From NCBI GenBank assembly GCA_003220675.1, contig QHTD01000060.1:1-35528 (forward strand): 35,528 nt of DNA. The letters run 5' to 3'. Source of the stretch: Candidatus Rokuibacteriota bacterium (GTDB taxonomy: Bacteria; Methylomirabilota; Methylomirabilia; Rokubacteriales; CSP1-6). A model generated the notes under the pieces. That model worked only from the letters and a program-made list of their open reading frames with translations, was not told where the DNA came from and did not search any database. Positions 4,541 to 12,338 of the stretch are shown one piece after another (position 1 is the stretch's first letter; every line of letters begins with the position of its first letter). Both the position numbers and the translations under genes were made by a program.

Positions 4541-5661
4541 CGGCCCCGTTCGAGCGCCGGCTTCGCCGGCGCAATCCTGTCGCTGGGGGTGGCTTCGGAG
4601 GGGGCCACCGAGGCCCCCTCCGAGGTACTCACGCCCGCGGACTTGAACGTGGCCATCTCGCTCCAGATCAGGGCGGCGGCGCGCGCCAGGTGAATGAACA
4701 GCGCGGCGCCCGTCCCCTCCCCGAGACGCATCTCGAGGTCGAGGTAGGGCGTGAGCCCGAGGCGCTCGAGGATCACCGCGTGGCCCGGCTCGGCCGAGCG
4801 GTGGGAGGCGAAGAGCGCGTGGCGCGCGTCGGGGGCGAGCGTCACGGCGGCGAGAGCCGCAGCGCCAGCGATGAAACCGTCGAGGACCACGGGCACGCGG
4901 CGGGCGGCGCCGACGAGGATCACGCCGACGAGCCCGGCGATCTCGAAGCCGCCGACCCCGGCGAGGACGTCCACGCCGTCGCCCGGATCGGGGGCGTTCA
5001 CGGCGAGCGCGCGGCGGACGACGTCCACCTTGCGGGCGAACGCCGTGTCGTCCACGCCGGTGCCGCGACCTGTGACTCGCTCGGGGGCCGCGCCGGTGAT
5101 CGCCGCGGTGATCGCGCTCGCCGCGGTGGTGTTGCCGATCCCCATCTCGCCGGTGGCCAGAAGGTCGGCTCCCGCGTCCAGCGCTCGCTCGGCGAGCCGC
5201 GCTCCGGTCTCGATCGCGCGCACGGCGTGCTCGCGCGTCATCGCCGGACCGCGCGCCATATTCGCGGTGCCGGGCGCCATCGGGCATGAGACGAGCTCCG
5301 GCGAGCCCGGGATCGGGTTGGCCACGCCGAAGTCGGCGACGACGACGCGCGCCCTCGCCTGGCGCGCGAGGACGTTCACCGCGGCTCCGCCCCGCAGGAA
5401 GTTTTCGACCATCTGCGCGGTCACGACCTGAGGATAGGCGCTGACGCCCTCGGCGACCACGCCGTGGTCGGCTGCGAAGGTGAAGATCACCGGTCGCTCG
5501 ACGCACGGCGTCCCGTCCCGCAACACGGCGAGGCGCGCCGCGATCTCCTCGAGCCGCCCGAGGCTTCCGGGCGGCTTGGTGAGGCTATCGAGGTGACGCT
5601 GCGCCTCCGCGAAGGCGTCGGCCGGCGGCGCGGCGATCGCGCTAAGGAGACTGGAGAGCAT
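4537..5661 (-). CDS. cobT: Nicotinate-nucleotide--dimethylbenzimidazole phosphoribosyltransferase (CobT)
   Basis: 374 residues. CobT activates the lower ligand by making alpha-ribazole phosphate from nicotinate mononucleotide and dimethylbenzimidazole, part of nucleotide-loop assembly. Family features are LDSLTKPPGSLGRLEEIA near the N-terminus, FTFAADHGVVAEGVSAYPQ, the MGIGNTTAASAI loop and LGEGTGAALFIHLARAA, which carries the catalytic glutamate. The ATG at 5661 lies inside the 3' end of cobU (20-bp overlap). The conserved enzyme ends near SEMATF; the last ~30 residues (STSEGASVAPSEAT...ALERGR) are low-complexity and are encoded by a composite palindromic repeat, so the natural C-terminus seems to have been replaced or extended by that repeat. 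Confidence 0.93.
   Translation of the reverse strand: MLSSLLSAIAAPPADAFAEAQRHLDSLTKPPGSLGRLEEIAARLAVLRDGTPCVERPVIFTFAADHGVVAEGVSAYPQVVTAQMVENFLRGGAAVNVLARQARARVVVADFGVANPIPGSPELVSCPMAPGTANMARGPAMTREHAVRAIETGARLAERALDAGADLLATGEMGIGNTTAASAITAAITGAAPERVTGRGTGVDDTAFARKVDVVRRALAVNAPDPGDGVDVLAGVGGFEIAGLVGVILVGAARRVPVVLDGFIAGAAALAAVTLAPDARHALFASHRSAEPGHAVILERLGLTPYLDLEMRLGEGTGAALFIHLARAAALIWSEMATFKSAGVSTSEGASVAPSEATPSDRIAPAKPALERGR
4551..4623. repeat. Composite palindromic repeat (hairpin A plus hairpin B) at the 3' end of cobT
   Basis: Hairpin A is gcgccgg-cttcg-ccggcgc (4554-4572), followed by a spacer containing ctgggggtgg. Hairpin B is a perfect 12-bp stem, 4595-4606 with 4612-4623 (tcggagggggcc / ggccccctccga). 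The same A-spacer-B order is seen around the IS110 insertion at 10729-10747 and 12306-12333. It is translated as the CobT C-terminal tail. Confidence 0.88.
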
Positions 5662-7388: not shown

Positions 7389-7408
7389 GAGGACTAGCGG
7401 CCGAGGTT

Positions 7409-7436
7409 TCGGAAGGGGGGCGAAGCCCCCTTCCGA
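7409..7436. repeat. Palindromic hairpin B between convergent genes (possible bidirectional terminator)
   Basis: tcggaaggggg (7409-7419) and cccccttccga (7426-7436) form a perfect 11-bp stem around gcgaag. It falls between the MBL-protein stop (7388) and the stop of the extended DedA-rhodanese frame (7438). It could terminate both transcripts, but there is no T-run on either side. It closely resembles the copy at 12306-12333. Confidence 0.85.
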
Positions 7437-7437
7437 G

Positions 7438-8373
7438 TCAGCTCAGCGCCTCGAGCGGGAGCCCGCGCTCCCGCCACCCCTCGAGCCCGCCCAGGAGCGG
7501 GCGGACGCGCGTCACGCCGTTACCGCGGAGCTTCATCGCCACACGGGCGCTCGTGGCCTCGTTCGGTCAGGTGCAGTAGAGGACGATGTCGTGGTCGCGC
7601 GGGATCTCCCGATGGCGCTCCTCGATCTCCTCCGCGGTGATCCGGAGCGCGCCGGGGATCGTGTACGGGTCCGCCTCGACGTCGAGCGCCGCGCGCAGGT
7701 CGACCACGACCAGGGGCTCGCCCGCGTCGAGCTTCTGCTTCAGCGTGTCGGGGCTGATCCGCGCGACGCGCAGCCGGCGGCTGACGCGCTGGCGCTGGAT
7801 GAACTTGAGCGCCACGTAGCCTACGACGACGACGATCACCGTGGCGACGAGCCAGGCGCCGAGGCGCTCGGCCCGGCCCACCACGGGCTCGAGTGCCTCG
7901 CCGGCGAGGTAGCCCACGCCCGACCAGATCCCTGTCCAGAGCAGCGCCCCCGCGCCACCGTAGAGCACGAAGCGCGCAACGCCCACGCCGAAGATCCCGG
8001 CGAGCGGCGGCGCCACGGTGCTGAGCCCGGGGACGAACTTCGCGATCAGGAGCGAGCGCGTGCCGTGGCGCGCGAAGAGGTTCTCCGTGCGCCGGACGCA
8101 CGAGTCGGGCTCGAGCGAGAGCCTGCAGAGGAGCGCGAGCACGCGGCTTCCGCGCTGGCGCCCGAGGTAGTACCAGATCAGGTCGGCCAGGAGCGAGGCG
8201 ACCGTTGCGATCACGAGCGCGAGCAGGAGATTGATGCGCCCCGTCCCCGCGAGCGCGCCCACGGCGAGCAGCGTCGGCACCGCGGGGATCGGCAGGCCCA
8301 CCTGCTCGGCGAAGACGAAGCCAAATAGCACGAGGTAGCCATACTCCGTAAGGAACTGGAGCGTATCGTGCAT
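7438..8373 (-). CDS. DedA-family membrane protein fused to a rhodanese domain; in-frame UGA, possible selenoprotein
   Basis: The ORF track stops at 7567 after 268 residues, ending REIPRDHDIVLYCT. The stop is a UGA, and the same frame then reads PNEATSARVAMKLRGNGV and VRPLLGGLEGWRERGLPLEALS to a second UGA at 7438. That is exactly the rest of a rhodanese domain, and relatives of this fusion are expected to read YC-T-C-PNEA, so the UGA stands at the second cysteine. The full product would be 311 residues with residue 269 as selenocysteine. Residues about 1-190 are a DedA/VTT membrane domain (FAEQVGLPIPAVPTLLAVGAL; KFVPGLSTVAPPLAGIFG). The cytosolic rhodanese domain starts near residue 200. A short hairpin follows the UGA. 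Plain truncation or a sequencing error remains possible; no sel genes are in this window. Confidence 0.7.
7538..7569 (-). promoter_or_regulatory. Candidate recoding site: UGA codon plus SECIS-like stem-loop
   Basis: On the minus strand the UGA (7569-7567) is followed after 9 nt by GCCAC (7557-7553), a 10-nt loop beginning GAG, and GTGGC (7542-7538). Bacterial SECIS elements are stem-loops immediately 3' of the UGA inside the coding sequence with guanines at the start of the apical loop. Geometry is compatible, but the stem is only 5 bp and such hairpins are common in GC-rich DNA. Confidence 0.4.
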
Positions 8374-10686: not shown

Positions 10687-10728
10687 GAGCGGATCACCTC
10701 GCAGCGTGTCGGAATAACGGCAGTTCGA

Positions 10729-10747
10729 GCGCGGGCTTCGCCCGCGC
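10729..10747. repeat. Hairpin A, left remnant of the composite repeat split by the IS110 element
   Basis: gcgcggg-cttcg-cccgcgc forms a 7-bp stem with the same pentaloop as hairpin A in cobT (4554-4572). It is flanked by cgagc- and -aat like that copy. The matching hairpin B lies on the other side of the element at 12306. Confidence 0.85.
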
Positions 10748-10831
10748 AATCGATCCTTATACTGCATCCGTCGCGAGTCGTAGGTCAGGAGAGAGGAGAC
10801 TCGCCTGTCGAGGGGAGAAGCAGGAAGAGGA

Positions 10832-11000
10832 GACGCGGCGGCCGAGCATGGCGGCCAAGGGCTTGCTGACCAGAGGACCAAAACGATCGGAGCCCCCGGA
10901 GGCTCACCCCCAGAGTGTCCCGGTCGGCAAGAGAACGGCACTGAAGGTTCAAGAGAAAGTGGCCCCCCGGAGGGCCGGTATAAGGGCAACCTGCCGTTCC
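10832..11000 (+). ncRNA. IS110 bridge RNA with target-binding and donor-binding loops
   Basis: Target loop: an outer 10-bp stem (10862-10871 with 10922-10931, one G-U) and GGAC/GTCC enclose an internal loop carrying left guide CGATC (10884-10888) and right guide CCCCCAG (10907-10913), separated by hairpin GAGCC/GGCTC (10890-10905). Donor loop: stem GAACGGCA/TGCCGTTC (10933-10940 with 10992-10999) and GGTT/AACC enclose left guide AGAGAAAGT (10952-10960) and right guide GTATAAG (10978-10984), separated by hairpin GGCCC/GGGCC (10961-10976). The guides match the occupied target (CGATC-CT and CT-GGGGG) and the element ends (AGAGAAAGT-CT and CT-TATAC). The 5' end is approximate. This is the RNA architecture known for IS621; the base matches are seen directly. 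Confidence 0.9.
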
Positions 11001-11042
11001 CGCTCCGCGGCCGCGAGCGCGGTGCCCGAAGGAGGCGGACCA

Positions 11043-12275
11043 GTGCGCTACCACCTCGGAGTCGATTGGGCGGATCAGACGCATGCGGTCTGGGTCGTGG
11101 ATGAGCGCGGGACCAAGATCACCGCGCGCACGGTGCCGCACACGGCGGAGGGGTTGAGCGAGTGGGGCCGGGAGCTGGACGAGTGGCGGGCGCACGGGAT
11201 CGAGCTGTGGGCGGCGATTGAGCGGCCCGAGGGCCGGGTGGTGGATTTCCTGCTCGACCATGGCATCGTGGTCTATCCCGTGAACCCCAAGGCGCTGGAC
11301 CGGGCCCGGGATCGGTTTCGGCAGAGTGGAGCGAAGGATGATCCGTTCGACGCCCGGGTGCTGGCCGACTTCCTCCGCACGGATCATGCCCACCTCCGGC
11401 CCTTGCGGCCGAGCTCGGAGGCGGCCCAAGAGCTGAAACTCCTCACGGAGGACTACCAGCGGCAAGTCCGGCAGCAGACGCGCCTAGTCAACCAGCTCAC
11501 GATCACCCTCAAGGCGTACTATCCGCGGGCCCTCGAGGTGGCGGAGTTGACGACGGGGTTGGCGCAGGCGTTCCTGCAGGCGTACCCGACGCCGGCGGCC
11601 GTGGCGGCGCTCACCGAACGTCAGTGGCAGCGGTGGGCCCGCGCGCATCGCCTGAGCGCGACCCGGACCCGGGAGCTCTGGGAGGTCCTCCAGCGACCGC
11701 AGCTGCCCGTGCCCGCCCACGTCGTGCGAGCCAAGGCCCGGTTGATGCGAAGCCTCGTGGCGCAGCTGACGCCGGTCGTAGCGGCCGTCGGGGAGTACCG
11801 GGAGGCGATCGAGGATTTTTTCGCCCGTATGTCGACCGCGCAGTGGATTCGGACGCTGCCGATCGGTGACCACGGCATCACGGCCCCGACGCTCTGGGCC
11901 CGCTTGGGCGACGCCCCCGGGCGATGGGAGGCGTTTCGGCATCTCCAGGCCCAGGCTGGAGCCGTGCCGGTGACCAAGCGGAGCGGGAAGCAGCAGCGGG
12001 TCGTGCACTTCCGCGTCGCCTGCGACAAGGCGTTGCGGTACGTGGTCGATCAGGTCGCGTTCCTCTCGCTCCGGTCGTGTGAGTGGGCCCGGGCGTACTA
12101 CGACCAGCAGCGGGGGCGGGGGCATTCTCATCGCCGGGCACTCCGGGCGTTGGGCGCGAAGTGGCTGAAGATCATCTTCGTCATGTGGCAACGCCACGCA
12201 TCCTACGACGAGCCGTACCACCTCGCGACGATGGCGCGGCAGCAGCTGCGGCAGCCGCAGACAAAAATCGCTTGA
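11043..12275 (+). CDS. IS110-family transposase (DEDD serine recombinase)
   Basis: 410 residues from a GTG preceded by AAGGAGG at 7-nt spacing. The 774-residue ORF of the track wrongly adds the bridge-RNA region and part of the ferritin-like gene. The N-terminal RuvC-like DEDD domain has Asp8 in LGVDWAD, Glu60 in AAIERPEG, and Asp100/Asp103 in KDDPFDARVLAD. The middle is helical with a basic coiled region (DYQRQVRQQTRLVNQL). The C-terminal Transposase_20 (IS116/IS110) domain has IRTLPIGDHGITAPTLWARLGD and GAVPVTKRSGK, which carries the catalytic serine. Full length with no frameshift. It should act with the adjacent bridge RNA to recombine donor and target at CT cores. Confidence 0.95.
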   Translation: MRYHLGVDWADQTHAVWVVDERGTKITARTVPHTAEGLSEWGRELDEWRAHGIELWAAIERPEGRVVDFLLDHGIVVYPVNPKALDRARDRFRQSGAKDDPFDARVLADFLRTDHAHLRPLRPSSEAAQELKLLTEDYQRQVRQQTRLVNQLTITLKAYYPRALEVAELTTGLAQAFLQAYPTPAAVAALTERQWQRWARAHRLSATRTRELWEVLQRPQLPVPAHVVRAKARLMRSLVAQLTPVVAAVGEYREAIEDFFARMSTAQWIRTLPIGDHGITAPTLWARLGDAPGRWEAFRHLQAQAGAVPVTKRSGKQQRVVHFRVACDKALRYVVDQVAFLSLRSCEWARAYYDQQRGRGHSHRRALRALGAKWLKIIFVMWQRHASYDEPYHLATMARQQLRQPQTKIA

Positions 12276-12305
12276 TATGGACCAGAGAAAGTCTGGGGGG
12301 AGGAG

Positions 12306-12333
12306 TCGGAAGGGGGGCGAAGCCCCCCTCCGA
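12306..12333. repeat. Hairpin B, right remnant of the composite repeat split by the IS110 element
   Basis: tcggaagggggg (12306-12317) pairs with cccccctccga (12323-12333) with one bulged A. It is nearly identical to the hairpin at 7409-7436, including the following gagtcag. It lies just before the stop codon of the convergent DUF2059-like gene and may also end transcription there. Confidence 0.85.
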
Positions 12334-12338
12334 GTCAG

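Follow-up and report, generated by a model that had tools for sequence, protein, structure and literature searches.

The element and its recombinase

The stretch of DNA analysed here (the window, 35,528 nt) is a contig of a metagenome assembly, most likely from Rokubacteria, since close relatives carry the name Candidatus Rokuibacteriota. It contains an IS110-group insertion sequence laid out as a left non-coding end (LE) of ~285 nt, the coding sequence and a right non-coding end (RE) of only 17 nt. The dinucleotide CT stands on either side of the element (10756-10757 and 12293-12294), and its boundaries were placed from these CT cores, from the donor guide matches given below and from uninterrupted homologous sites elsewhere.

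10758..12292, + strand: IS110-group insertion sequence, excluding the flanking CT cores
11043..12275, + strand: IS110-type DEDD recombinase, 410 aa, GTG start, intact, identified by profile matches

The recombinase matched PF01548 (3.7e-34) and PF02371 (5.5e-07), and scored 131.4 bits against NF033542, slightly under the cut-off of 140. It also weakly matched the structures of IS621 (8wt6, E = 3e-4) and ISCro4 (9t56), with the catalytic D, D, D and S aligned; specifically, D8, D100, D103 and the Ser of a KRSGK motif align with IS621 catalytic residues, the E position being ambiguous there. The defining features of the IS110 group that we looked for were present: a DEDD (RuvC-like) N-terminal domain with a Transposase_20 domain carrying the catalytic Ser, a long left end upstream of the gene (285 nt) against the short right end (17 nt), a two-loop left-end RNA whose guides co-vary with target and donor, and, as a sequence match in six elements, a sigma-70-like promoter at the RE-LE junction. 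The downstream non-coding guide-RNA region of the IS1111 group was absent, the element having only its 17 nt downstream of the gene, and because the RNA lies upstream of the gene the IS1111 group was excluded. We found one copy of the element in its own genome assembly, which is incomplete (437 contigs), and a search of viral contigs found no relative. Judged from these sequence features, the element is almost certainly a complete member of the IS110 group and employs a bridge RNA.

A two-loop RNA in the left end

The features of the predicted bridge RNA and of the sites that it would pair with are as follows (LTG and RTG, left and right target guides; LDG and RDG, left and right donor guides).

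10747..10757, + strand: left target CAATCGATC with the left copy of the CT core, paired with the LTG
10758..10763, + strand: right donor TATAC, also the -10-like TATACT of the RE-LE junction promoter match
10773..10804, + strand: probable 5' stem-loop of the bridge RNA, GCGAGTC (10773-10779) with GACTCGC (10798-10804), from reading the sequence
10862..10931, + strand: target-binding loop (stem, LTG, central hairpin, RTG), from the fold and the alignment of relatives
10880..10888, + strand: left target guide AAAACGATC, the last 8 nt matching the left flank at 7/8
10890..10905, + strand: central hairpin of the target-binding loop (GAGCC/GGCTC), from the fold and alignment
10907..10913, + strand: right target guide CCCCCAG, pairing with CTGGGGG at 7/7 with the core included
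10933..10999, + strand: donor-binding loop (stem, LDG, central hairpin, RDG), from the fold and alignment
10952..10960, + strand: left donor guide AGAGAAAGT, the same sequence as the right end at 12284-12292
10978..10984, + strand: right donor guide GTATAAG, reverse complement of CT-TATAC at 10756-10762
10985..10986, + strand: candidate handshake guide of the donor loop, GG here and GC where the target of relatives ends in GC
12272..12277, + strand: -35-like TTGATA of the junction promoter, a sequence match that overlaps the stop codon
12284..12294, + strand: left donor AGAGAAAGT with the right copy of the CT core
12295..12299, + strand: right target GGGGG

A first-pass annotation had proposed a two-loop bridge RNA with guides here, and the strings that it cited all stand where it had put them (CGATC at 10751-10755, TATAC at 10758-10762, AGAGAAAGT at 12284-12292 and GGGGG at 12295-12299). 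The two-loop arrangement itself was borne out, as it is the minimum free energy structure of 10862-11000 (-57.4 kcal/mol, z = -2.5, with 4 of 200 shuffles equally stable) and its stems are kept in 11 relatives. Since a longer stretch including the flanking GC-rich sequence was of ordinary stability (z = -0.4), the energy of a single sequence is weak evidence, and the main structural weight rests on the alignment of relatives. Over the 11 relatives, 98.3% of the cells in the stems of both loops were paired, compared with 93.3% after shuffling, and seven pairs showed changes on both sides, with none of 500 shuffles as high; controls in which the structure was slid along the alignment paired at 23–49%. 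These compensatory changes sit in the outer stem of the target loop and in both central hairpins, the donor-loop stem being almost invariant, and the loss of stems in homologues that the annotation had named as evidence against the RNA was not found. An Rfam scan matched no family in this region and gave one chance match elsewhere.

The donor guides match both ends of the element exactly, as had been claimed, and within the 35.5-kb window AGAGAAAGT had just two occurrences (10952 and 12284), as did GTATAAG/CTTATAC (10978 and 10756). For the target guides the right one stood as proposed (7/7), and the left one proved longer than the CGATC originally assigned to it: CGATC lies within a guide of ~8 nt, AAACGATC, which matches the flank AATCGATC at 7/8, that is, with two more matching positions and one mismatch. 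When we scanned the 1619 CT sites of the linear window, none equalled the real split site on both target guides. As also noted earlier, the left guides in the window are followed by GG (10889-10890 and 10961-10962), and the right guides end in AG, which pairs with the CT core. The GG is unable to pair with the bottom-strand core. Several relatives have CG at the donor-side position, where the C could pair as in IS621.

A predicted promoter at the joined ends

Joining the right end of the window element to its left end gives TTGATA-N17-TATACT. The pattern TTGA(C/T)(A/G)-N17-TATA(C/T)T was found in the window, L002, L003, L004 and L015, and with N16 in L013, so that a junction promoter match was present in 6/6 elements with both ends; the five relatives have TTGACA or TTGACG. 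A promoter scan of the linear window gave no match, as is expected if the promoter exists only in a circle, and IS621 has the same RE-LE junction arrangement (PMC11208158, PMC11208160). From this reading the bridge RNA transcript likely starts near 10770 and includes the 5' stem-loop at 10773-10804; 10832, where the span first given for the RNA starts, is probably inside the RNA rather than its 5' end.

The single copy in the assembly, and a -35 of TTGATA where several relatives have TTGACA, could mean that this is a formerly working bridge-RNA element that is now immobile. This reading is compatible with the main explanation, but we regard it as rather unlikely, as the 410-aa frame is intact with its catalytic residues aligned, the stems are intact and the donor guides are exact.

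Guides follow targets among relatives

We compared the element with relatives from other Rokubacteria (Candidatus Rokuibacteriota) genomes, which are metagenome assemblies offering few independent targets. Two conserved stems served as fixed anchors for extracting the guides: the 12 nt that follow GAGGACC gave the left-guide segment, and the 9 nt that precede ACTGTCC/AGTGTCC gave the right-guide segment. The left guide of L013 lies one base further 3', and every register was allowed in all comparisons. We excluded from the guide counts L016 and L017, which may use a CC core, and L005 and L006, whose contigs lack the guide region. The targets were:

Window: AATCGATC-CT-GGGGG
L002: AATCCACT-CT-GGGGC
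L003: TTCCCGGC-CT-GCTGC
L004: CCGAGCGC-CT-TCGCG
L032: TGCTGCGC-CT, right end off the contig
L014: ATTGGCTC-CT, right end degraded
L013: TCCGAAAC-CT-CCCCC
L015: CCCGATCC-CT-CTCCC

Left guides matched their own flanks at 58 of 64 positions over the eight elements with differing targets (7 or 8 of 8 in each), a total attained by the true pairing of guides and flanks only (1 of 40,320 permutations). Right guides matched at 42 of 42 positions over the six elements with both flanks (7/7 each), and this too was reached only by the true pairing (1 of 720). Relatives with 67–89% protein identity and other flanks have guides altered to match, and the case that had been named as one against guide function, flanks that differ with no matching change in the guides, was not found. 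L002, L003 and L004 are 85–89% identical to the window protein and have the same donor guides and different target guides, the right guide of L002 being largely common to that of the window. The donor side co-varies as well: in the close group the ends read CTTATAC and the RDG GTATAAG, in L013 and L015 they read CTTATAT and ATATAAG, and the LDG repeats the left donor in relatives, as AGAGAAAGT or as ATAGGAGGT / ATAGGAAGT. In related copies the donor loop has been retained and the target loop exchanged for one that addresses other sites. In more distant groups (33–37% identity; L018-L020, L022 and L023) the same right-guide correspondence was seen by eye, outside these counts, an example being CGATGAGA in L020 against the flank TCTCATCG. 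Co-variation of the handshake guide with the target was weak (12/16 against a mean of 9.5, with 1728 of 40,320 permutations as good).

Most left guides of the relatives, like that of the window, carry one mismatch to their present flank. In the window, L002, L003, L004, L007 and L014 there is one mismatch each within the seven core-adjacent target bases, at position 2 or 5; given the small sample, this pattern is possibly chance. L016 (G043) and L017 (G045) may have a CC core instead of CT, their right guides ending in GG; the right flank of L016 starts with CC after the donor end, and with a CC core the junction promoter spacing would be 17. In the alignment, L003 and L032 alone carry ~75–80 nt of extra sequence separating the bridge RNA from the left end.

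A dispersed palindromic repeat as the target

The first-pass annotation had not recognised the nature of the target, which is a dispersed palindromic repeat that the element interrupts.

10724..10757, + strand: left half of the interrupted REP/BIME-like repeat, hairpin GCGCGGGCTTCGCCCGCGC and then AATCGATCCT
12293..12335, + strand: right half of the interrupted REP/BIME-like repeat, CTGGGGGGAGG... and hairpin GGGGGGCGAAGCCCCCC

With the element removed and the flanks joined, we found many matching uninterrupted loci (85–96% identity) in its own genome and its family, the best (3.1e-36) being in its own genome, and at least 14 matches per genome in its own and sister genomes. Each unit has two hairpins, with the consensus hairpin - AATCGATCCTGGGGGGAGG - TCGGA - hairpin, and the insertion point of the element is exactly the spacer between them. 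The 12-mer CGATCCTGGGGG occurs nine times in its own genome and its reversed control not at all. The repeat copy in the window, the one whose position we looked at, is intergenic. Elsewhere in the window, two more fragments of this repeat occur at 4549-4624 and 7403-7438, and the double-hairpin repeat is dispersed and abundant throughout this Rokubacteria family. As the target is the spacer of such a repeat, one guide addresses many sites that are probably harmless.

The single mismatch of the window left guide to its own flank is at target position 2, a T, and repeat variants without that T match the guide at 14/14 positions; two such sites, AACGATCCTGGGGG, are in its own genome. Since the guide mismatches its own flank and exactly matches another repeat variant, it most likely pre-dates the present insertion. 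This bears on a second alternative, that an element copies flanking DNA into its loop on insertion and the guide did not choose the site. Guides do vary widely among elements 84–91% identical in protein, as copying would produce, but the window guide fits two other genome sites better than its own flank, as a guide older than the insertion would, and programmed targeting has been demonstrated for IS621 (PMC11208160), so we consider capture very improbable. Least tenable is an ordinary transposase mRNA leader or attenuator with guide matches by chance, for although the two central hairpins look terminator-like on the minus strand and the fold with longer flanks is no more stable than shuffles, it is refuted by a guide-flank correspondence over eight targets that only the true pairing attains; the 9-nt and 7-nt donor strings, which in the window are unique to the guides and element ends, also speak against it.

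Other targets in the clade

Several relatives lie in protein-coding sequence. L032 interrupts an ABC_sub_bind gene (PF04392) in its N-terminal region, whereas for L005 it is the C-terminal region of another such gene that the right flank runs into. By translation, L003 appears to lie at the AEAQQAGK signal-cleavage motif of such genes, and L004, L006 and L007 at their conserved TAKALGL motif. L003 and L032 share the coding motif AEAQQAGK, their target sites lying 9 bp from each other, and sequence close to the L032 target occurs within the right flank of L003. ABC_sub_bind matches number 18 (G010), 22 (G054) and 49 (G055) per host genome; the window's genome has two pieces on one contig. The gene that holds L002 is transposase-like (rve_3, HTH), and G055 and G054 have uninterrupted homologues; by near-exact 15-mer the L002 target was not multicopy in 57 genomes, a set excluding its own G055. 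Measured against reversed controls, the enrichment of short target patterns was clear for the repeat, moderate at the L004 site and slight at the L003 site.

It is conceivable, though we hold the idea only tentatively and lean against it, that this Rokubacteria IS110 lineage repeatedly reprograms the target loop alone to the most repeated sequence of its host. If so, the palindromic repeat would be targeted in the genome of the window and ABC_sub_bind coding motifs where the family has 18–49 matches, and bridge-RNA elements would naturally pursue multicopy sites.

Proposed mechanism

The sequence and structure of the element and the co-variation of its guides with their targets were observed directly; circle formation, transcription, RNA binding and recombination are proposed by analogy with the IS621 work. 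The bridge-RNA element would excise as a circle that abuts its RE and LE, with a junction reading AGAGAAAGTCTTATAC. The abutted ends would form a sigma-70-like promoter (TTGATA in the RE, 17 nt, TATACT in the LE) that would transcribe the left-end RNA and the recombinase. On the left of the first loop, the guide AAACGATC would pair with the bottom strand of AATCGATC, and on the right CCCCCAG would pair with CTGGGGG on the top strand. The second loop would pair with the ends of the element itself once these are joined, AGAGAAAGT-CT-TATAC, and the recombinase would swap strands at the CT core.

Comparison with known systems

Durrant et al. (PMC11208160) had already predicted bridge RNAs for 85.7% of the elements in the IS110 group and reported that guides and targets co-vary across thousands of pairs, so the present element is one more member. 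The first-pass annotation described it as a separate high-GC example with a different target, which is accurate but understates how widespread bridge RNAs are known to be. On the sequence evidence, the observation is confirmed as real and well supported, the mechanism having been published already.

Like IS621 (PMC11208160, PMC11208158), the element has a DEDD recombinase, a CT core, a predicted junction promoter and insertion into REP elements. Both have a long left end with two internal loops, the target loop first and the donor loop second, and in both the LTG pairs with the bottom strand and the RTG with the top strand. Unlike IS621, to which its recombinase is only distantly related (E = 3e-4 to 8wt6), it has other target and donor sequences, an RTG that reads five non-core target bases where that of IS621 covers two, and a predicted RNA of ~230 nt compared with 177. 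Its LTG is followed by GG, with no core match, whereas in IS621 the core is paired by both guides; as core pairing by both guides belongs to the particulars of IS621 and does not define the family, the IS110-group assignment stands. These differences are small.

As in the seekRNAs of the IS1111 and IS110 types (PMC11187229), an RNA from the non-coding region would select the target. The non-coding region lies upstream, as in IS110-type seekRNA elements and unlike in IS1111 members, where it is downstream. Several such elements are known to insert into REPs (PMC1525189), and natural reprogramming has been reported for seekRNA (Siddiquee et al. 2024, PMC11187229); the bridge-RNA mechanism (IS621, seekRNA), REP targeting and natural reprogramming have all been described previously. 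The present element, from a soil bacterium of a phylum known mainly from metagenomes, is an independent natural case with a recombinase far from IS621, in which target loops were swapped in nature and the donor loop was kept. Several of its sister elements, with guides and targets already known, supply a set of candidate recombinases in which five bases outside the core are read by the right guide. Like ISPpu9, ISPpu10 and ISPa11 (PMC1525189, PMC8450116), the element has a fixed insertion place in a dispersed extragenic palindrome; unlike them, it uses a Rokubacteria repeat and inserts in the spacer between two hairpins.
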